A stretch of DNA of 61,678 nucleotides from a virus, in the IMG/VR virus record IMGVR_UViG_3300050821_010313, positions 1 to 61,678 of that record. One strand, 5' to 3'. This document shows, in pieces, positions 511 to 49,265 of the stretch (position 1 is the stretch's first letter; the number at the start of each line of letters is the position of its first letter). Below the pieces are notes generated by a model. That model had not been told where the DNA came from. It did not search any database and saw only the letters and a list, made by a program, of their open reading frames with translations. A program made the position numbers and the translations under genes.

Positions 511-2615
511 ACGCAAGCTGCCTCCCTATCCCGCGCCATCCAGGACAAGTCCGGCGCCCAGCTCCAATCGTCAGGCCACCAAGGATTCAACTTGCCTTTT
601 GAATCGCGGACGTCGCCAGCGTTCTTGAACCACCTTCGCATCAGCGCCGGCTTAGGCTTACAGGCCACGTCCGGGCACCAGTACCTCGCCGCCGCCTCGA
701 ACAGCCGCGCGTGCTCGTCAGCCGCAGCAGTGACGTTCAAGCTCTCGGGAATCTCCGTAATGCTTTCATCGTGCGCGAAGATGACCTGCCGGGAGCCAAA
801 CAACGGCGAATCTTTCTCGTAGTAGCAAGCTTTCGCTACGCGCCAGATTGCGTCCTTTGCGAGCCGGGCCGCGAGCCCCTGGAAGCGCAGATTCGCTGCC
901 TCGGTGAACTTTCTCCCGCGGACCCACATCACGGGCTCGTCGCCAGGGCCCCACACCTCGATCAGCGAGTTGCGCGGGTCCTCGCACTCCTCACCCACGC
1001 GTCTGTGGTAGCGGCGCATCTCGGGGAGCATTTCAAACCAAGCAGACCGGAACTTGTCCGCGACCTCGACACACGGACGGCATAGTGGCTTGCCGATCCG
1101 CTCGGAAACGTACGTGTCCTTGTTGTGCTCGTGCCCTTCGGTCTTGCAGAAGTTCACACCACCGTTCCCCGGTTGTCGGCAATAAACCACTAGCTTTTCC
1201 GCGGACATAGCGGCGCCCATTGCGTAATTTACGGGCTTAGACGCCTGTCGAAACAGTTTCATCCGTGCATCTTTTGCTCTATGTAGCGCGATCCCCTCCT
1301 CGTAAGAGATGCCCAACAAACCGCTCGCCAGGTTCACGTGCAGATCGCGCCCAGCGTTCAGCAGCTCAGCCAAGGCCGATTGTCCGAACATCCAGAGAAG
1401 GTTCTGCGCAAGCGTCACCAGCTCCAGCGACGGGTAGTCGACCGAGTTCCAAACGGAGTCGTAGGGGTCCCCAAAACGCGTGTGCCTCGCGACAAAGCAC
1501 TCACGCGAGCGCCCAATCCGGGGCAAATTCTGGATGTTGGGATCCCACGCCCCCGTGCGCAGCGTGCGCTTGATCGGGTCGTAATGGACGCAGATAGGGA
1601 CCCGCGTGCCTTGCTGGATGACGCGGAGGTATGTCTTGTACTCGGTCTCGCCCGCGCCCTGCTCGCCGAGCTTCATCAGCAGGGGATCGCCCGACTCCAG
1701 GAGGCTGTCCCGGTCGCAGCAGACCTCACCGCTGTCTGTCGAGGGGGGAGAGCCCTTGTAAGCCGCGGCGACCAGTGCTTTGAGGGCCCCTTGGTCTTTC
1801 GTGCCGACGTCGTTGGGCAGCCAGGGCCTCCAACAGCCGGGGCCGGCGAGGTGTGGCGCCTTCCCCTCGCACTGCTTCTTTCGTCGGCACCAGCCCTCGC
1901 CACGGTACACCCCTACCTCGGTGAACTTAGCGATCAGCCGCTCGTGCTGGGCCGTGGACTCCTTTACGACGTCCTCCACCATCTCGGGATCTGTGCGCGG
2001 TCCCCAGCAGGACATCAGGTGCAGTGCCCATGCTGCACGGTTCTCGCGTGGCTCAAGCTTCAGGTTGGCGATTCCGGGATCCGTCTCGGGGTCTCCATTA
2101 CCCTGGGCCTCGACCACGTCGTAGGTGCGCCGGGCGTCGCGCTTGGCGTAGGCCCGGTCTTCGTCGCTCCACATCTCGAAGGGGACGCCGTCCAGGTGCG
2201 CGTAATGCAGTCGCGGCGTGTCCTCTTTCGCCAGGTACAGGCCCAGGACCTTCTCGGAGACGCTGGCCAGGCTGTACGCCTCGATCGGCCGGCCCTGCGC
2301 GTCTTCCAACAGCGTGCCTCGGCCGAGGTCCAAGAGAGCTTGCCTTCGCGCGGCGTCGAGTATCTGCCCGCGCTCCAGCATCTCGAAGACGATGGGCACC
2401 AGCTCAGGGAACATGGCGCAGGCGACGCCTAAATCGAATGGTGCGTTGAAGAACGCAAGGATTTCACCAAACGCGTGGGCGTCGATCAGTGCCTGTCGAA
2501 ACTCTTTCGGGTGCAGCAAACGCTCAGATGTCTTGTCCGCGACCTGGCCGACGACCAGGCGCGGCGCCGCTCTCCCGGGAATTACAATGTACGTTTCGCT
2601 GTCCAGGGCTTTCAT
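507..2615 (-). CDS. DNA polymerase, family A, with 3'-5' exonuclease domain
   Basis: Replicative phage polymerase of about 702 residues. The N-terminal third is a DnaQ-like proofreading domain: Exo I LDSET (D5, E7), Exo II NAPFD (N57, D61), Exo III YAKRD (Y156, D160). The C-terminal half has the family A palm and fingers: motif A DYPSLEL near residue 390, motif B RQASKPVNYAMG near 455, and motif C as AHDES near 615. Motif A reads DYPSLEL where most Pol I enzymes have DYSQIEL, but the metal-binding Asp and the Glu are kept. No 5'-3' exonuclease domain is present, as usual in phages. Its start ATG overlaps the stop of the adenine methyltransferase gene (ATGA), so the two are probably translated together. 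Confidence 0.95.
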   Translation of the reverse strand: MKALDSETYIVIPGRAAPRLVVGQVADKTSERLLHPKEFRQALIDAHAFGEILAFFNAPFDLGVACAMFPELVPIVFEMLERGQILDAARRQALLDLGRGTLLEDAQGRPIEAYSLASVSEKVLGLYLAKEDTPRLHYAHLDGVPFEMWSDEDRAYAKRDARRTYDVVEAQGNGDPETDPGIANLKLEPRENRAAWALHLMSCWGPRTDPEMVEDVVKESTAQHERLIAKFTEVGVYRGEGWCRRKKQCEGKAPHLAGPGCWRPWLPNDVGTKDQGALKALVAAAYKGSPPSTDSGEVCCDRDSLLESGDPLLMKLGEQGAGETEYKTYLRVIQQGTRVPICVHYDPIKRTLRTGAWDPNIQNLPRIGRSRECFVARHTRFGDPYDSVWNSVDYPSLELVTLAQNLLWMFGQSALAELLNAGRDLHVNLASGLLGISYEEGIALHRAKDARMKLFRQASKPVNYAMGAAMSAEKLVVYCRQPGNGGVNFCKTEGHEHNKDTYVSERIGKPLCRPCVEVADKFRSAWFEMLPEMRRYHRRVGEECEDPRNSLIEVWGPGDEPVMWVRGRKFTEAANLRFQGLAARLAKDAIWRVAKACYYEKDSPLFGSRQVIFAHDESITEIPESLNVTAAADEHARLFEAAARYWCPDVACKPKPALMRRWFKNAGDVRDSKGKLNPWWPDDWSWAPDLSWMARDREAACV

Positions 2616-3334
2616 TTCACGAACCGATCATCATGCAGCCAACAAACTTCTACGTTCTTCTTTCCAGTCATTGCTGTGTTTGTCGTAGTCCAGGGAACAA
2701 ACGGCAACCACGTCGCGCCTTGATTTTCACAAACGATCACTTGACCCGCGCGCGCACGGCACCACGAACTCAACGCCGCGTAGTCTATCATCTTGCTAGA
2801 GCACTTGTAATAAACGCCAGCCTCCTGATAGGGAGGATCCACAAAATAGGTTGCTCTTACGTCTGGCGCTAAAGCGTAGTCTCCCTCGATCACCCTCCAA
2901 TGGCGAATGGAATCAACCTGAACAGCGACGCGTTCTCTTTGCGCTTCAGTCCACCCCCCGTATGCGTATCCCGCTACGTGTGCTTTTCGCATCCAGGGTG
3001 TTGTTCGCGCCTGTGGGGACGTCGCGCCGTTACGCATGCACATCCCGACCAGATAGCGGGGAGCGCCCTGCCACGCCGCGGGCAGGTCAGCGCAATCTTG
3101 TACGCACGGTATCCTACGCACTTCCGCCGCGCGGACCGCGATCAAGTAACGCCAAATTTCGGCGATCACCGGGTACTTCTCTACCAAAACCACGTTACGA
3201 TCTGGATAGCGCAGACTGTAGCCTGCTGCTCCCGCAAAGGGCTCAATGATCGTGCTGTGTGCTGGCGCGGGGTATAATGGCGCCGCGCGCCACTTGCCCC
3301 CGTAGTATTTCCAAAACGGTTTTAAGGCTTTCAT
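2612..3334 (-). CDS. DNA adenine N6-methyltransferase (Dam/D12 class)
   Basis: A 240-residue methyltransferase. N-terminal KYYGGKWR is the D12-class substrate loop, EPFAGAAGYS is the SAM-binding motif I, and FVDPPY is catalytic motif IV (DPPY), in the order expected for Dam/M.DpnII-type enzymes. It would methylate adenine N6 in the phage DNA, probably to evade host restriction. An AGGGGG Shine-Dalgarno stands before ATG, preceded by a stable hairpin (separate entry). An AAACGGTTT palindrome lies inside codons 5-8. The gene is coupled to the polymerase downstream. No restriction partner is visible, so it is an orphan enzyme. Confidence 0.93.
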   Translation of the reverse strand: MKALKPFWKYYGGKWRAAPLYPAPAHSTIIEPFAGAAGYSLRYPDRNVVLVEKYPVIAEIWRYLIAVRAAEVRRIPCVQDCADLPAAWQGAPRYLVGMCMRNGATSPQARTTPWMRKAHVAGYAYGGWTEAQRERVAVQVDSIRHWRVIEGDYALAPDVRATYFVDPPYQEAGVYYKCSSKMIDYAALSSWCRARAGQVIVCENQGATWLPFVPWTTTNTAMTGKKNVEVCWLHDDRFVK

Positions 3335-19462: not shown

Positions 19463-19666
19463 TTGGCCTTGCGCGGTCTGAAACTGGTTTACAGTGTCCG
19501 TGAGCTGGCGGAGCTGGCGGGCGTGTCGCCGTACAGGATGCGCCACATCCTAGAGACGAACGAAGTGCCCACGAGCCGCTCGGGGAACCGGCAAATGGTC
19601 TACGCGTCCGCGCTCGCCTCGGCGCTGCCTGACCTGGCTGACTCGATCAAAATGAAGGTTGAGTGA
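19463..19666 (+). CDS. Excisionase/MerR-like HTH protein
   Basis: A 67-residue DNA-binding protein. YSVRELAELAGVSPYRMRHI is a clear helix-turn-helix of the MerR/excisionase (HTH_17) kind, followed by the wing (VPTSRSGNRQMVY). GGAGGAAG precedes the TTG start. Small proteins of this type act as recombination-directionality factors or as transcription regulators; with no integrase in view, the location just before terminase suggests a regulator or packaging-site helper. Confidence 0.7.
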   Translation: MALRGLKLVYSVRELAELAGVSPYRMRHILETNEVPTSRSGNRQMVYASALASALPDLADSIKMKVE

Positions 19667-20367
19667 TGACCCCTACCGAGGAAAATCTCTGTGACAGTTA
19701 CGCGAAGCGCTTGCGCTTGCAAAAGTATCGGCATGCCCCTGGGCGCTCCCTAGTTCGGAAGAGCCGGGCCGCGCTCCGGAGGGCGCTCTTCGTCGAGGAG
19801 TTCATTGCGGGCGGTTGTGCCTCAGCCTGCGCGGCAGCACGCCGGGCGGGGTTCTCAGAGGTCAGCGCAGGCCCGCGGGCCTGGTCCCTGATGCGAGACC
19901 CCGAGATCGCGGCGGAGATCGCGCGACGTGTGGACGATCGCCTTGCAAGGGTGTGTGTCACTGGGGATCGACTCGTGCGTGAGACTGCACAGATCGCGCT
20001 CGTCGATCCTACTAGCGTTATTGGCGCGGATGGCCGGTACAAGCCCGTCAGCGAATGGCCTGAGGACGTGCGCCGGGCCGTGTCCGCGTTGGAGATCGGC
20101 CACGAGAAAGCTCTGACCGCTGACTCGGGCGAAGAGGTGACTCTAGGCCGCGTCACGAGCGCCAAGTTCCATAACAAGATCGAGGCGATCAACCTGCTCG
20201 CGAAACTGCTTTCGATGGTTGTCGAGCGCAGCGAGGTCAAGACGGAGCTTTCCGGTCCGGGAGGCGGTCCGATTCAGGTGCAAGTTGCTGAGGCGCGTAA
20301 ATCGCTCATGGACAAGCTTGCGACGCTGCGTCCGGTCGAGGTAGTTGACGGAGAGGTGATCCCGTGA
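19666..20367 (+). CDS. terS: Terminase small subunit
   Basis: A 233-residue protein. The middle (LRRALFVEEFIAGGCASACAAARRAGFSE, residues about 40-70, followed by RDPEIAAEIARRVDDRL) matches the Terminase_2 pattern: an N-terminal HTH that recognises the packaging site, then a helical oligomerisation region. It is followed after two small genes by the large subunit. ATG at 19666 (TGATG) is chosen; a GTG one codon earlier is equally possible. It would bind the pac/cos site and feed DNA to TerL. Confidence 0.85.
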   Translation: MTPTEENLCDSYAKRLRLQKYRHAPGRSLVRKSRAALRRALFVEEFIAGGCASACAAARRAGFSEVSAGPRAWSLMRDPEIAAEIARRVDDRLARVCVTGDRLVRETAQIALVDPTSVIGADGRYKPVSEWPEDVRRAVSALEIGHEKALTADSGEEVTLGRVTSAKFHNKIEAINLLAKLLSMVVERSEVKTELSGPGGGPIQVQVAEARKSLMDKLATLRPVEVVDGEVIP

Positions 20368-20629: not shown

Positions 20630-21060
20630 CGGTCGATCAGGTCTATGCAAAGTTGGGTTGGGTGAGGCGCGAACCTCGCGAGGTGCAGCAGCTGAACGGT
20701 TTTCGAGCTGTCGCGTTCGACGTCCGCGATCGCTGCACGGGGCGCACGACGCGCATGCTCGTGAAGGCTGTGGCGCTCCTGTCCGAGGACGTGCCCGTGT
20801 GCGTTGTGACGTCCTGGCCGTGGAACAGGACCGATGCAGTAGCGCGCTTGCGCGAAATGGTTTCGCGCTGCAAGGTGGATGCGCGCCGACTCAATGTGAT
20901 CAGCCTGGAGCAGCATGAGCAGGTCCGAGGTTGGGGCGGGTGCATTCTCTTAGATCACACCTGCCGCGACGTGCGCGCCCCAGACATGTACCACGCCTAT
21001 GAGCAGGTATCTGAGCGTGCGACGTATTGCCCGAACGCTTGTGCGGAGTTCTGCAGGTGA
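20626..21060 (+). CDS. Phage protein with GRTTRML P-loop-like motif
   Basis: A 144-residue protein. DRCTGRTTRMLVKAVALL is a P-loop-like motif found in many phage proteins (TGRTTRML), followed by a VCVVTSWPW strand and a Walker-B-like GGCILLDH. The fold is probably a small nucleotide-binding Rossmann-type domain. It overlaps TerL as GTGA. Members of this kind occur beside packaging or replication genes but their role is unknown. Confidence 0.6.
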   Translation: MTVDQVYAKLGWVRREPREVQQLNGFRAVAFDVRDRCTGRTTRMLVKAVALLSEDVPVCVVTSWPWNRTDAVARLREMVSRCKVDARRLNVISLEQHEQVRGWGGCILLDHTCRDVRAPDMYHAYEQVSERATYCPNACAEFCR

Positions 21061-23660
21061 GGACTTTGGGCCTCTCACCGGCCCAGCTCTTCGCGCGCCG
21101 GCCCGAGGAGGAGCAGCGTCGTTTCCTCGACGGGCTCACGGCGCAGGAGCTGCTCGCGCTTCAATACCAGTGGCGCGAGTGGTGGGCGCGCCCGGCGCAG
21201 GTTGCTCCCCCGGGGCTGTGGTCCGTGTGGCTGATATTGGCTGGGAGAGGGTACGGGAAACTTCTAGACGTGAATACCAAGATCCCTGTACCCCGCGGCT
21301 GGAAGAATCTGAAGGATATTTGTGTTGGCGATGAGGTCTTTGACGAGTCAGGTCGTGTTTGTAGGGTGCTGAAGACTTTTGATGCGGTGCCGGCTGTGGC
21401 GTATCGACTGCATTTTTCAGACGGAACACACCTGGATGCTTGTGCGGATCATCAATGGGTGACGTGGACACATGCCGAGCGTAAGGCTTTTCTTCGGTCT
21501 CCTTATGAGCAAACGAATAGATTCCCTGAGGAGTGGCCCGCTTGGCGCCTGCGTCGGCGTCCTGGGTATCAATTACCTGAAAGTGTTTTGAATGAAGCTC
21601 TTGAGTTGGCCTCGAAGGGCCTATCTGCGCGCACTATCGGTAAGCGTTTAGGTGTGTGCCGACAGGCCCTCGCGCGGCACCTGAAGGCGGGTGCGCCTGT
21701 GCAACGCATTGCGAAGGTTTATGCGGATTCGCCAGGCCCTGAAATCCGTACTACTCAACAAGTTGTTGAGACGCTCACGTACGACGCGCGTGGGGATATA
21801 AATCACTGCGTGCCTGTATGCGGGGCTCTTGAGTTGCCTGACAGGCAACTGCCTCTGGACCCTTATGTGCTTGGACTCTGGCTGGGGGATGGGACTGCGC
21901 GAAACGGAGATATCACAGCGCACGAAACTGACCAGGCGCGCGTTCGCGCAGCGTTGCAGCGCGCGGGTTTTGTAACGACGCGCGTGAGTAGTCCTCAGCG
22001 CATCGGGACGCGCGGTTTATTCAGGGTACTAAGGTTGATGGGACTTTTAGGAAAAAAGTACGTACCTCCAGAGTACTTACGCGGTTCTGTGACTCAAAGA
22101 CTCGCGCTTCTGCAGGGGCTAATGGATACGGATGGGTACTGTAGGCCTGAAAACGGGCATGTGGAGTTCTGCAACACGAATCGCGCGCTCGTTGATGCGG
22201 TGGTCGAACTTGCGCGATCTCTGGGACAGAAGCCCGTATGCGCCGAGGGTCGCGCGCAGCTTTACGGACGGGATTGCGGGCCCAAGTGGCGCGTAACTTG
22301 GCGTCCCACGGTCGAGGTGTTCCGAATGCCTCGCAAGTTACGGAGGATCAAGACTTGCGCGCAAAGCCTTAGAAATCACCATCGCATGATCGTTCGCGCC
22401 GAACGCATTCTTCCAGCACCGATGCGCTGCCTAACTGTGGACAGCAGACATTCTATGTTCTTGGCGGGGGAGGCGATGATCCCCACGCACAATTCACGGA
22501 GCGGCGCCGAGTGGAGCATCGAGCAGGCGTTCACCCGGCCGGGCTCCCGCGGCGCGCTCGTGGGCGAGACGCCTGGTCAGGTCCGCTCCGTGATGCTCGA
22601 GGGCGACTCGGGGATCCTCACCGTGTCCCCGCCCTGGTTCCGTCCCACATACAATCCGAGCAAGTGCCTGCTCACGTGGCCCAACGGGAGCGTGGCTTCG
22701 ACTTACTCGGCCTTCAACTTCGAGGAGCTGCGTGGCCCTCAGCACCATTGGGGTTGGGCTGACGAACTGGCGAAGTGGAAGCACCTGGGTGAGGGCGAGG
22801 CGTGGGATCAGCTCATGCTGGGGATGCGCTTACCTCCACACGCGAACGTGTGCGTTACCACGACGCCGAGGCCCATCCCGCTGATCAAAACCCTTTTGAA
22901 GGATTCGCACACAGTCGTTACGCGTGGCACCACGTACGAGAATCTGCCCAACCTCGCGGACCTATTCCGTCAGCAAGTGCTCGCCAAGTACGAGGGGACG
23001 CGCCAGGGCCGGCAGGAGTTGAACGCCGAGGTGCTCGACGACGTCGAGGGCGCGCTGTGGACGCACGCGCGGTTCGAGGATCTGCGCGCCCCCAAGCCGG
23101 GGGCCTGGGAGCTGCGTCGGGTCGTGGTGGGCGTGGACCCCTCAGGCAGCAGCGGAGAGGAAGGCGACGCTCAGGGAATCATCGTCGCGGGCTTGTTGAA
23201 GGACGGCAACGAGGCGCGCGTACTCGACGACCTGACTTGCAAGCTCTCACCCGCGGGCTGGGGCGCGCGCGTGGTTGAGGCTGTGGTGAACCACTCCGCG
23301 GATTGCGTCGTGGCCGAGCGGAACTTTGGCGGTGAGATGGTGGAGCATGTAATCCAAGTCGCGGCCAGGGAAAAGAACGTCGCCGTGCGGGTCAAACTCG
23401 TGAATGCGTCCAGGGGCAAGGTGGTGCGCGCGGAGCCGATCGCAGGGCTCTATGAGCAGAAGCGCGTGCGCCACTGTGGCATGTTCTCGGATCTCGAAGA
23501 CGAGCTGTGCCTGTTCACGCCCTCGGGCTACCAGGGACCACGCTCACCGAATCATGCGGACGCGGCTGTGTGGACAATTTCGGAGCTGATGGGGAGTGCC
23601 GCGCCCGCGAGCTACAGTGGGCTGGACAAGAAGAAGGCGAGCTGGGGGAGAGGACGTTAG
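21057..23660 (+). CDS. terL: Terminase large subunit precursor containing an intein
   Basis: An 867-residue precursor that splices to a TerL of about 456 residues. Exteins: LAGRGYGK (first part of the Walker A) is interrupted directly after the Lys and resumes with SRSGAEW. Walker B/catalytic GWADELAK follows, then the coupling motif TTTPRP. The C-terminal RNase H-like nuclease has GVDPSG (Asp), VVAERNFGG (Glu) and NHADAA. The GTG start at 21057 overlaps the previous stop (GTGA); a longer TTG start at 21027 is less likely. TerL cuts concatemeric DNA and drives it into the prohead. Because the intein splits the ATP-binding loop, packaging must wait for splicing. Confidence 0.95.
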   Translation: MRTLGLSPAQLFARRPEEEQRRFLDGLTAQELLALQYQWREWWARPAQVAPPGLWSVWLILAGRGYGKLLDVNTKIPVPRGWKNLKDICVGDEVFDESGRVCRVLKTFDAVPAVAYRLHFSDGTHLDACADHQWVTWTHAERKAFLRSPYEQTNRFPEEWPAWRLRRRPGYQLPESVLNEALELASKGLSARTIGKRLGVCRQALARHLKAGAPVQRIAKVYADSPGPEIRTTQQVVETLTYDARGDINHCVPVCGALELPDRQLPLDPYVLGLWLGDGTARNGDITAHETDQARVRAALQRAGFVTTRVSSPQRIGTRGLFRVLRLMGLLGKKYVPPEYLRGSVTQRLALLQGLMDTDGYCRPENGHVEFCNTNRALVDAVVELARSLGQKPVCAEGRAQLYGRDCGPKWRVTWRPTVEVFRMPRKLRRIKTCAQSLRNHHRMIVRAERILPAPMRCLTVDSRHSMFLAGEAMIPTHNSRSGAEWSIEQAFTRPGSRGALVGETPGQVRSVMLEGDSGILTVSPPWFRPTYNPSKCLLTWPNGSVASTYSAFNFEELRGPQHHWGWADELAKWKHLGEGEAWDQLMLGMRLPPHANVCVTTTPRPIPLIKTLLKDSHTVVTRGTTYENLPNLADLFRQQVLAKYEGTRQGRQELNAEVLDDVEGALWTHARFEDLRAPKPGAWELRRVVVGVDPSGSSGEEGDAQGIIVAGLLKDGNEARVLDDLTCKLSPAGWGARVVEAVVNHSADCVVAERNFGGEMVEHVIQVAAREKNVAVRVKLVNASRGKVVRAEPIAGLYEQKRVRHCGMFSDLEDELCLFTPSGYQGPRSPNHADAAVWTISELMGSAAPASYSGLDKKKASWGRGR
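21261..22493 (+). mobile_element. Class-3-like intein with LAGLIDADG homing endonuclease
   Basis: A 411-residue in-frame insertion in the TerL P-loop. N-terminal block A LLDVNTKIPVPRGWKNL lacks the usual Cys/Ser at position 1 (Leu instead). Block B ends DHQW, block F is MRCLTVDSRHSMFLAGE and the end is IPTHN followed by Ser. The trio Trp (block B), Cys (block F) and Thr (block G) is the WCT signature of class 3 inteins, in which the block F Cys starts splicing. Two LAGLIDADG helices (LGLWLGDGT, LLQGLMDTDG) show a homing endonuclease, and an extra HTH (SARTIGKRLGVCRQALARH) lies before it. Base composition is visibly less GC-rich than the flanks, a sign of transfer. Confidence 0.92.
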
Positions 23661-47126: not shown

Positions 47127-49265
47127 ATGAGTGCGTATGACGGTGTTCCGAATCTCCCAAGCGCCAAAACCGACTCGGCAACACCTTCGCCTGCACCTGC
47201 GGGCGAGACGTGGCATGCCGCGGAGTGGAACGCTCTCGTAACCGCCGTCGCTGACCTGCGCGCTGCGCTAGCAGGAGGCACGCCGTCCGAGGGCGGTGCC
47301 GGGAACTTTTTCACGCTCGCGAAAAACCTGAGCCCGCCGAGCGGTGCCGCGAACGCGGCAAGTCTGTTCACGGACGGGGTCAAAGCGCTGGTCAACGCGA
47401 ACGCCGATCGTCCCCGGGAATTCAAACCGCGGCGGTACAACGTGAAGGACTACGGCGCGAAGGGCGACGGGACGACCGACGACACGGCGGCGATCAATGC
47501 GTGCATGGTCGACGCCTTCAGCCAACAGCTCTCGCAGGCCGCGACCTCGGTCACAATGTACTCGCGGCCGATCGTCCTGTTTCCCGACGGCATCTACAAA
47601 GTCTCGGACGTGATCAACATCGCGTACGCGTTCGACATCACCGGAGAGAACGCGGTGATCCACGGGTCAAACAGCGCGAAGGACATCTTCCACTTTAATC
47701 CGGGCGGCAACGCGAAGTACACGATCCACGGCATTACCTTCGTTGGTGGCCAGAACCAACTCTGGTACGACTCGGGTGGCGTCAACTCGACGTACATCGG
47801 TATCACATCCTGCATGTTCATAAATCCGTCTGTCGCCGGGATTCACGCTGGGCCGACGCACAGTGGCGTGATGGTCTGCCAGGACTCTTTCTTTTTCGTC
47901 TTCGACACAAGCGCCTCGGTCGCCTACCTCGAAGGCGGGGATGATAACATTTTCGCCCACTGCAACGCAGGTGTGAGCGACGCGTCCGCGTCCTTCTACG
48001 CGACGGGGCAATGCGGCCTGAAGCTCTACAACGTTTTCGGGGCGCCCAGCGCGAACGGCGGCGGCGGCGCGTGGATTCGGACCGCTGGCGCACTCGGTCC
48101 GCAGGTTGTGGCTTACCGTTGCCGGCTCGGCGGCGAGGGCTCGATGCCTTGCGTTGATTGGCACGCGACTGGGGGGCAGCTCGTCTACGACAAAATGAGT
48201 GCGTATTCCCCGAGTGGGCAGACCTTCAAGTTCTACGACGTCCCCGACTTTTGTGAACTCGATGTAATGGACGGCGACGGAACGGGTATCTGGTTCGACC
48301 CGTCGATGTCCGCTGCGCGGAAGGCGTACCTCGGAAGCATTCTGTTCAAGAGCCCCGGGACGGATCCCCGGGGGATCGAGACCCAAGGCGTCGCGCTGCC
48401 GTACCCCGCGGACACCGTCGGGAGCGACGCGCTATGCTTGCTTCAGGCAACGCTGAATCCACAATCCGGCGCGCAGGGGCATCTCGTCCAGACGTCCGAC
48501 TTTCTGTTTGGAATAGACCCCGGTTTCGTCGGTTACGGAGAAGACACCAGTTTTAGCAACGCGTCTGGTGCGAACGGGACGAACCTGTTCGGCGGAGCGA
48601 ACCAGACGTGGGCCGCGACCGCCGACGGCGGAAATGTGAGCTTCGACTGGCCGCTCGCGATGACGGGGGCACCTCAAGGCTCGTATACGCTCGTCGTCGA
48701 CTGCACCTGCACCGTGCCGCTGATGTTGACGCTGACCGCCGGAGTCACGAGCCGGCGCTTTCTGTTGAACCCGGGAGACCCTTCGCCGAGAATGATCTTT
48801 AATCAGGACACGGCGGGGTCGATCGGCCCCGACATCGGAGTGAACTTCGCGACGCTGCGGAACACGGGACAGTTCACGATCAACCGTATCCGCGTCTTCG
48901 CGGGCCGGCAGCAGATTCCCGACGAGCGGACGATTGTGTGGGGCTCCGGCAATCCGATTACCGGGACGTGGCAGCCGGGAGATGAGTGGTTGCTCGCGCC
49001 TCCGGCTGCAGGAACTTCGCCCGGTTCGGTCTGCACTACTGGTGGGATTCCAATCAAGGGTGCGTGGGTGACACTCACAGGCTACACGTGGGGTGACCAG
49101 GTATCATTTTCTGGCAACGTCTATCGATGCGTCCAGACTGGAACATCGGGGGCGAGCGGTCCGACGTTCGGTACGACCGTCAGTACTGACGGGACGGTCA
49201 AGTGGCTCTACATGGGCGCCGTGGGCGCTCCGACATGGAAGGCGAAGGCAGCCCTCGCTGCATAA
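47127..49265 (+). CDS. Tailspike with pectate-lyase-like beta-helix and carbohydrate-binding tail
   Basis: A 712-residue protein. Residues about 100-130 contain NVKDYGAKGDGTTDDTAAIN, the entry motif of Pectate_lyase_3 beta-helices; a long beta-helix follows. The last 90 residues include VTLTGYTWGDQVSFSGNVYR and GPTFGTTVSTDGTVKWLYMG, a domain often found at the end of phage fibres that binds polysaccharide. It probably degrades or binds host capsule or slime polysaccharide. The catalytic residues cannot be named from sequence alone. Confidence 0.85.
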   Translation: MSAYDGVPNLPSAKTDSATPSPAPAGETWHAAEWNALVTAVADLRAALAGGTPSEGGAGNFFTLAKNLSPPSGAANAASLFTDGVKALVNANADRPREFKPRRYNVKDYGAKGDGTTDDTAAINACMVDAFSQQLSQAATSVTMYSRPIVLFPDGIYKVSDVINIAYAFDITGENAVIHGSNSAKDIFHFNPGGNAKYTIHGITFVGGQNQLWYDSGGVNSTYIGITSCMFINPSVAGIHAGPTHSGVMVCQDSFFFVFDTSASVAYLEGGDDNIFAHCNAGVSDASASFYATGQCGLKLYNVFGAPSANGGGGAWIRTAGALGPQVVAYRCRLGGEGSMPCVDWHATGGQLVYDKMSAYSPSGQTFKFYDVPDFCELDVMDGDGTGIWFDPSMSAARKAYLGSILFKSPGTDPRGIETQGVALPYPADTVGSDALCLLQATLNPQSGAQGHLVQTSDFLFGIDPGFVGYGEDTSFSNASGANGTNLFGGANQTWAATADGGNVSFDWPLAMTGAPQGSYTLVVDCTCTVPLMLTLTAGVTSRRFLLNPGDPSPRMIFNQDTAGSIGPDIGVNFATLRNTGQFTINRIRVFAGRQQIPDERTIVWGSGNPITGTWQPGDEWLLAPPAAGTSPGSVCTTGGIPIKGAWVTLTGYTWGDQVSFSGNVYRCVQTGTSGASGPTFGTTVSTDGTVKWLYMGAVGAPTWKAKAALAA

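Follow-up and report, generated by a model that had tools for sequence, protein, structure and literature searches.

The closest described counterparts of the element reported here are inteins that interrupt the P-loop of the phage large terminase subunit (TerL) and of the helicase DnaB. In mycobacteriophages, the TerL1-a inteins separate the invariant Lys of the P-loop from its Thr, and TerL inteins of class 3 have been described in these phages (Kelley et al. 2016, PMC5050341). The five mycobacteriophage TerL inteins that were tested spliced in a reporter, and the two that were tested cut intein-free TerL DNA (PMC5050341). That TerL1-a is of class 3 was read by us from the sequence of phage Henry, whose gp9 TerL intein reads as class 3 at GK↓T (the arrow marks the splice junction). 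Class 3 DnaB inteins splice through a branch at Cys(F:4) (PMC5222942), and the model of the class 3 mechanism comes from the DnaB and IcmO inteins (PMC5222942, PMC6195587, PMC7664689). The arrangement is thus an established one and occurs commonly in phages, class 3 inteins at the GK↓S/T of TerL being present in cultured phages. With the locus analyzed here, the class 3 P-loop inteins on record come to include one from a Terminase_6 phage that is not a mycobacteriophage.

The window is a viral stretch of 61,678 nucleotides (IMG/VR record IMGVR_UViG_3300050821_010313, positions 1 to 61,678), for which the initial annotation had proposed a class 3 intein in the Walker A loop of TerL. Like the window's intein, that of Henry gp9 occupies the Walker A site (ARKNGK↓A...THN↓TELLAG), has no nucleophile at position 1, carries the Trp, Cys and Thr (WCT) residues and contains a LAGLIDADG domain; the two are 43% identical over intein residues 159-411. 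Henry differs in that its terminase belongs to a family other than Terminase_6, in the lack of a helix-turn-helix (HTH) module and in having Ser instead of Cys at position 7 of block B (B:7). The TerL inteins of SOVA965, RcTiptonus, CMP1 and Vibrio 489E54-1 likewise combine a GK↓S/T site and a non-nucleophilic residue 1 with W/C/T and LAGLIDADG, but they reside in other TerL types, lack the HTH module and share 35-39% identity with the window's intein. The DnaB inteins M. smegmatis DnaBi1 (6bs8) and M. chimaera DnaB1 (6rix, 6riy) have in common with it the WCT residues, the block B His, a P-loop GK↓S site and Ser+1; they are, however, mini-inteins in a helicase, whereas the window's intein carries both an endonuclease and an HTH module.

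The insert in the Walker A loop of TerL

The open frame at 21027-23660 (877 codons) encodes a phage TerL of the Terminase_6 type that is split by an in-frame insert; it starts at TTG 21027 or GTG 21057 and its stop codon lies at 23658-23660. Both large-terminase domains are recognized by Pfam, the ATPase (Terminase_6N, PF03237, E=9.4e-14) and the RNase H-like nuclease (Terminase_6C, PF17289, E=7.4e-12). The insert comprises 411 residues, L1 to N411, with GRGYGK before and SRSGAEW after it, and it separates the Lys and Ser of Walker A (Table 1). The element itself had been identified correctly, but the interval assigned to it, 21057-23660, is that of the whole TerL gene; the intein occupies 21261-22493. 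Genes for portal, protease and major head proteins follow downstream.

Table 1. Position of the intein, its motifs and the flanking TerL sequences in the window
Feature	Position	Strand	Basis
Terminase small subunit, upstream of TerL	19663..20367	+	phrog_51, E=2.8e-18
TerL N-extein up to and including Walker A GRGYGK (21243-21260)	21057..21260	+	Aligned to LILAGRGFGK of intein-free TerLs
Class 3 intein, L1-N411	21261..22493	+	Boundaries by alignment to relatives and empty sites
Block A (LLDVNTKIPVPRG), with the non-nucleophilic Leu at position 1	21261..21299	+	Alignment; C/S/T never residue 1 in 101 relatives
C61, block B position 7 (CxxH replacing TxxH/DxxH)	21441..21443	+	Cys 33/101, Asp 59/101
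W66 (B:12), first residue of WCT; H64 two codons upstream	21456..21458	+	Invariant, 101 relatives
Accessory HTH module, intein residues ~101-157	21561..21731	+	HTH_38, E=0.005; modelled helices
LAGLIDADG motif 1, LGLWLGDG, catalytic D210	21867..21893	+	Alignment; I-DmoI and PI-SceI fold matches
LAGLIDADG motif 2, LLQGLMDTDG, catalytic D291	22107..22136	+	Alignment; Pfam LAGLIDADG_3, E=1.6e-7
C390 (F:4), predicted initiating nucleophile	22428..22430	+	Invariant in 101; corresponds to Cys118 of DnaBi1
T409-H410-N411, block G, C-terminal splice junction	22485..22493	+	T 100/101, H 99/101, N 101/101
Ser+1, second splicing nucleophile and Walker A Ser of mature TerL	22494..22496	+	Ser/Thr at +1 in 101/101
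TerL C-extein with the remaining ATPase domain, the RNase H-like nuclease and the stop codon	22494..23660	+	Pfam Terminase_6N, E=2.2e-14; Terminase_6C, E=4.3e-12

In a phmmer search, the closest solved sequences were the mycobacterial class 3 DnaB inteins 6rix (E=7.8e-16), 6riy and 6bs8, with matches at the two ends of the insert but none in its middle; a search of NCBIfam returned weak matches only. An AlphaFold2 model of the insert with five residues on each side has a mean pLDDT of 91.6 and a pTM of 0.86. The top Foldseek match to this model, PI-SceI, extends across the whole chain (TM ~0.6), and further matches include TliVMA, PhoVMA, PI-PfuI, the endonuclease I-DmoI and the class 3 DnaB inteins, the last superposing at ~1.0 Å across 68 columns with 37% identity. 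The predicted fold is thus that of a Hint splicing domain joined to a LAGLIDADG endonuclease.

We then compared the insert with relatives gathered from IMG/VR and GTDB genomes, the class 3 criteria being taken from published work (PMC5050341, PMC5222942, PMC6195587, PMC7664689). The alignment contains 101 non-redundant inteins, the window's included. H64, W66, C390 and N411 are present in all of them, T409 in 100 and the penultimate His in 99, and the +1 residue is Ser in 63 and Thr in 38. Since the patterns used for collection partly select for W or C, the fair subset consists of 34 genome loci chosen on a block B motif with Trp only; in it the Cys is found in 34 and the Thr in 33, and phages found by pattern-free tblastn carry W, C and T likewise. 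The window's intein starts with LLDVNT and has the DHQW, MRCLTV and PTHN motifs, so that the Trp, Cys and Thr singled out as a WCT signature in the initial annotation are W66 (B:12), C390 (F:4) and T409 (G:5). Together with Leu1, H64, H410, N411 and Ser+1, they make up a complete class 3 sequence signature. A chance match of the WCT residues was discarded as an explanation in view of the phmmer E-value, the invariance of the catalytic residues in the 101 inteins and the pLDDT of the model.

The absence of the normal nucleophile, also proposed at the outset, was examined with regard to an overlooked block A residue. Among the 101 inteins, position 1 is occupied by L, M, E, Q, A, D or G and never by C, S or T, and the alignment of block A is free of gaps (LLDVNT against A-L-x-x-x-T). 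Intein-free TerLs read AGRG[FW]GK↓TR[TSA]G and align without a gap at the junction; they come from the Brevundimonas phages Polewnik and Strzyga, the Desulfofustis phage LS06-2018-MD02, the Siphoviridae isolate ctuI7215, the Microcystis phage Mae-JY09, the Roseobacter phage CRP-6 and the IMG/VR contig L175. These seamless empty sites in related TerLs (GRGFGK↓T) fix the intein boundary between K and S. Neither the alignment nor the empty-site boundary revealed a Cys, Ser or Thr nucleophile at position 1, and a hidden nucleophile at the N-terminal junction was therefore dropped as a candidate. Had the N-terminal boundary been misplaced or a nucleophile gone unnoticed, the intein might belong to class 1 or class 2; such a reading would also have to accommodate a complete WCT set and a +1 residue that is Ser, not Cys, and we consider it scarcely credible. 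No intein-free close allele (above ~50% TerL identity) was found, a query with the TerL C-extein giving only two IMG/VR relatives.

On this evidence, we hold with high confidence that the insert in the Walker A loop of this Terminase_6-type phage TerL is a class 3 intein that bears a homing endonuclease and an accessory HTH. As the empty sites are seamless, Ser+1 would have two roles, as the second nucleophile in splicing and as the Walker A Ser of mature TerL. With the P-loop cut between its Lys and Ser, unspliced TerL should be without a working P-loop, and the ATPase activity of TerL would thus require splicing. A practical consequence is that such TerL genes are easily misread if the intein is missed.

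Proposed splicing pathway and variation of the active site

Splicing of the window's intein is predicted from the class 3 model. In the proposed pathway, C390 of block F would form a protease-like triad with H64 and T409 and, thus activated, attack the Lys(-1)-Leu1 bond to give a thioester branch. The N-extein acyl group would then move to Ser+1, cyclization of N411 would release the 411-residue intein, and an O-to-N shift would restore the P-loop GRGYGKS. ATP binding and DNA packaging would be carried out only by the spliced TerL.

The class 3 intein DnaBi1 differs from that of the window at three positions of interest: DnaBi1 has Ala1, Cys48 and Asp62 (B:7), the window's intein Leu1, Ala47 and Cys61 (B:7). 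Among the 101 inteins, Cys47 occurs with Asp61 in 45 and a residue other than Cys at 47 with Cys61 in 32, while a single intein has both Cys. In an enlarged set of 191 inteins the corresponding numbers are 109, 44 and 1; the loci added were partly chosen on the B:7 motif, and the extraction kept only inteins whose residue 1 is not a nucleophile, for which reason this set was used solely for the association between 47 and 61. The coupling is strong in raw counts. On the tree of the 191 inteins, each of the two positions has changed 13-14 times, and the supported independent pairs that differ at 47/61 all point in the same direction, though they are too few for significance. A large residue 1 (L, M) tends to accompany Cys61. 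The presence of Cys at B:7 without Cys47, the opposite of the studied mycobacterial form, is a new point and may surprise the specialist.

In DnaBi1, all tested substitutions of Cys48 abolished splicing (PMC6195587), which means that the window's clade, where Ala47 is found in 21 of 26 inteins, must manage without that Cys. The Ala at a position where DnaBi1 requires Cys (PMC6195587) could be taken to mean that the class 3 intein has decayed, has lost splicing and leaves TerL dead, and a class 3 intein of Arthrobacter FB24, in Arth_1007, is on record as a pseudogene (PMC3196547). Ala47 is nevertheless the usual residue of the clade, and its loss of Cys is probably compensated. Moreover, the frame is open and all catalytic residues are in place, and TerL adjoins the genes for small terminase, portal, protease and capsid. 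Between the window's intein and that of L016, codon positions 1, 2 and 3 differ by 30, 24 and 64%, respectively, which indicates purifying selection on the intein; the comparison is given by codon position, without a dN/dS ratio, as dS is saturated. The open frame and the codon-position pattern support the view that the intein is intact, and decay strikes us as very improbable.

The Cys at B:7 allows two further proposals, both of low probability. The first is that the active site of class 3 inteins comes in two forms, one, already studied, with Ala1, Cys47 and Asp at B:7 and another, shared by the window's intein and many phage relatives, often with a bulky Leu or Met at position 1, without Cys47 and with Cys at B:7, whose extra thiol near C390 might serve catalysis or a redox switch that times packaging; we put this forward as a doubtful conjecture. 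The second, which is compatible with the preferred reading and which we rate as somewhat more doubtful still, is that the intein has been kept as a conditional switch, oxidation of C390 and C61 or metal binding holding TerL unspliced until packaging is favoured. A disulfide between C48 and C118 pauses splicing in DnaBi1 (PMC6195587), and C61 is present in 33 of the 101 inteins, to the exclusion of Cys47 in all but one. Against such a switch, the TerL inteins that were tested splice readily (PMC5050341), and the endonuclease has kept both of its catalytic Asp residues, as would fit simple selfish homing without benefit to the host gene. The intein family, with its variation at positions 1, 47 and B:7 and in the HTH, offers a natural series for the residue requirements of class 3 splicing and for the role of the HTH in homing.

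Several loci depart from the common arrangement. In L050 (GK↓ALALGTPVPVTYRDPMIDEST) and L036 (GK↓LVEAGEPVLTACRCKANVPCMLASDT), 15-20 extra residues stand between GK and block A and are possibly a partly duplicated block A. The class 3 intein in the terminase-like frame of L006 ends in PTCN↓S, with Cys where the others have the penultimate His.

Endonuclease, HTH module and mobility of the intein family

The LAGLIDADG motifs and the additional HTH seen in the initial annotation were recovered by Pfam, in the model helices and in the fold matches, with the reservation that the HTH_38 match (E=0.005) is below the Pfam gathering cutoff. Each of the two LAGLIDADG motifs has its catalytic Asp (D210, D291). 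Once freed, the intein is predicted to act as a LAGLIDADG homing endonuclease of the kind with two motifs; it would cut intein-free P-loop-coding DNA, after which the element would be copied into the cut site. Some relatives, L029 among them, have lost a catalytic Asp, from which it appears that the endonuclease decays easily. The TerL of L012 has at the Walker A site a 160-residue class 3 mini-intein from which the endonuclease has been lost.

The HTH consists of three confidently modelled helices (intein residues 107-118, 123-130 and 134-143) and is present in five of the 101 inteins, those of the window, L016, L017, L018 and L028. It is cleanly missing from L003/L029, otherwise 67% identical, and so appears to be acquired or lost in one piece. 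An HTH accessory domain on a Hint and LAGLIDADG intein is also found in the TliVMA intein and PI-TkoII, where it is thought to tune DNA recognition (PMC8966425); those inteins are archaeal, and the likeness is one of architecture. The module probably adds DNA contacts.

The residues at -2 and -1 are GK in 91 of the 101 inteins. The genes that carry the GK site encode unrelated P-loop ATPases, namely several terminase families, DnaB-like helicases, FtsK and a type II/IV secretion ATPase. One scan of IMG/VR yielded 452 confirmed relatives, and the main site among the best-matching of these is the GK↓S/T of many unrelated P-loop ATPases. Inteins of the same class 3 family are also carried by the portal genes of L032 and L034 and of L009, L010 and L119, where the sites are GDSQHR↓T, which is no P-loop, and, in Mu-like portals, PEGR↓S, which resembles GK↓S.

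Lower GC had been taken as the mark of a newcomer. The drop is real: the intein has a GC of 0.562 and a GC3 of 0.56, against a GC of 0.66-0.69 and a GC3 of 0.82 in the two exteins, and the GC3 gap of 0.27 is the sixth largest of the 101. However, GC3 is below that of the exteins in 89 of the 101 family members (mean gap 0.087), so that the lower GC is a weak mark of a newcomer and supports that reading only in part. The intein tree places the window with L016, L029 and L017. The TerL data do not reject a group of the window, L016 and L029 (p=0.57) but reject the addition of L017 (p=2.6e-5). For the TerL clades tested, the intein data give no rejection (p=0.08-0.24). A group of the window, L086 and L040 is rejected by the intein data (p=0.0013); this group, favoured by the first TerL tree, is insecure, as the window falls with L016 in a TerL tree of better score. 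Identities of intein and TerL are decoupled across the family (58% against 36% for L095, 47% against 52% for L028), which, together with the tree tests, indicates that the family is mobile. Tree incongruence was set aside as proof of a recent transfer of the window's copy; a recent arrival is plausible and not proved.

Some TerL genes contain more than one intein. The 1578-residue TerL frame of L079 (IMGVR_UViG_3300020027_000006) has three: at Walker A (GRGWGK↓T) a class 3 intein that carries an HTH, another class 3 intein (ALDINTEIPTP...VTSN↓SAEEPERLRGPQ) and, ahead of the Walker B region, a class 1-like Hint (AW↓CLIGETPV...VHN↓CDELAAW). The TerLs of L029/L003, L044 and L046 have two, the class 3 intein at Walker A and a class 1-like Hint directly before CDE[LA]A.

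Elsewhere in the window, a frame of 239 residues at 2612-3334 on the minus strand had no match in a Pfam search and has a GC3 of 0.59, a low value like that of the intein, compared with 0.7-0.9 in the other large frames checked; it is possibly another acquired gene. On the plus strand, 26078-53598 holds a Mu-like structural module with Portal_Mu, a Mu-like protease, DUF2586, a tape measure protein and Baseplate_J. Within this module, 47127-49265 encodes a pectate-lyase-like protein with CBM_5_12, which is probably a tail spike.
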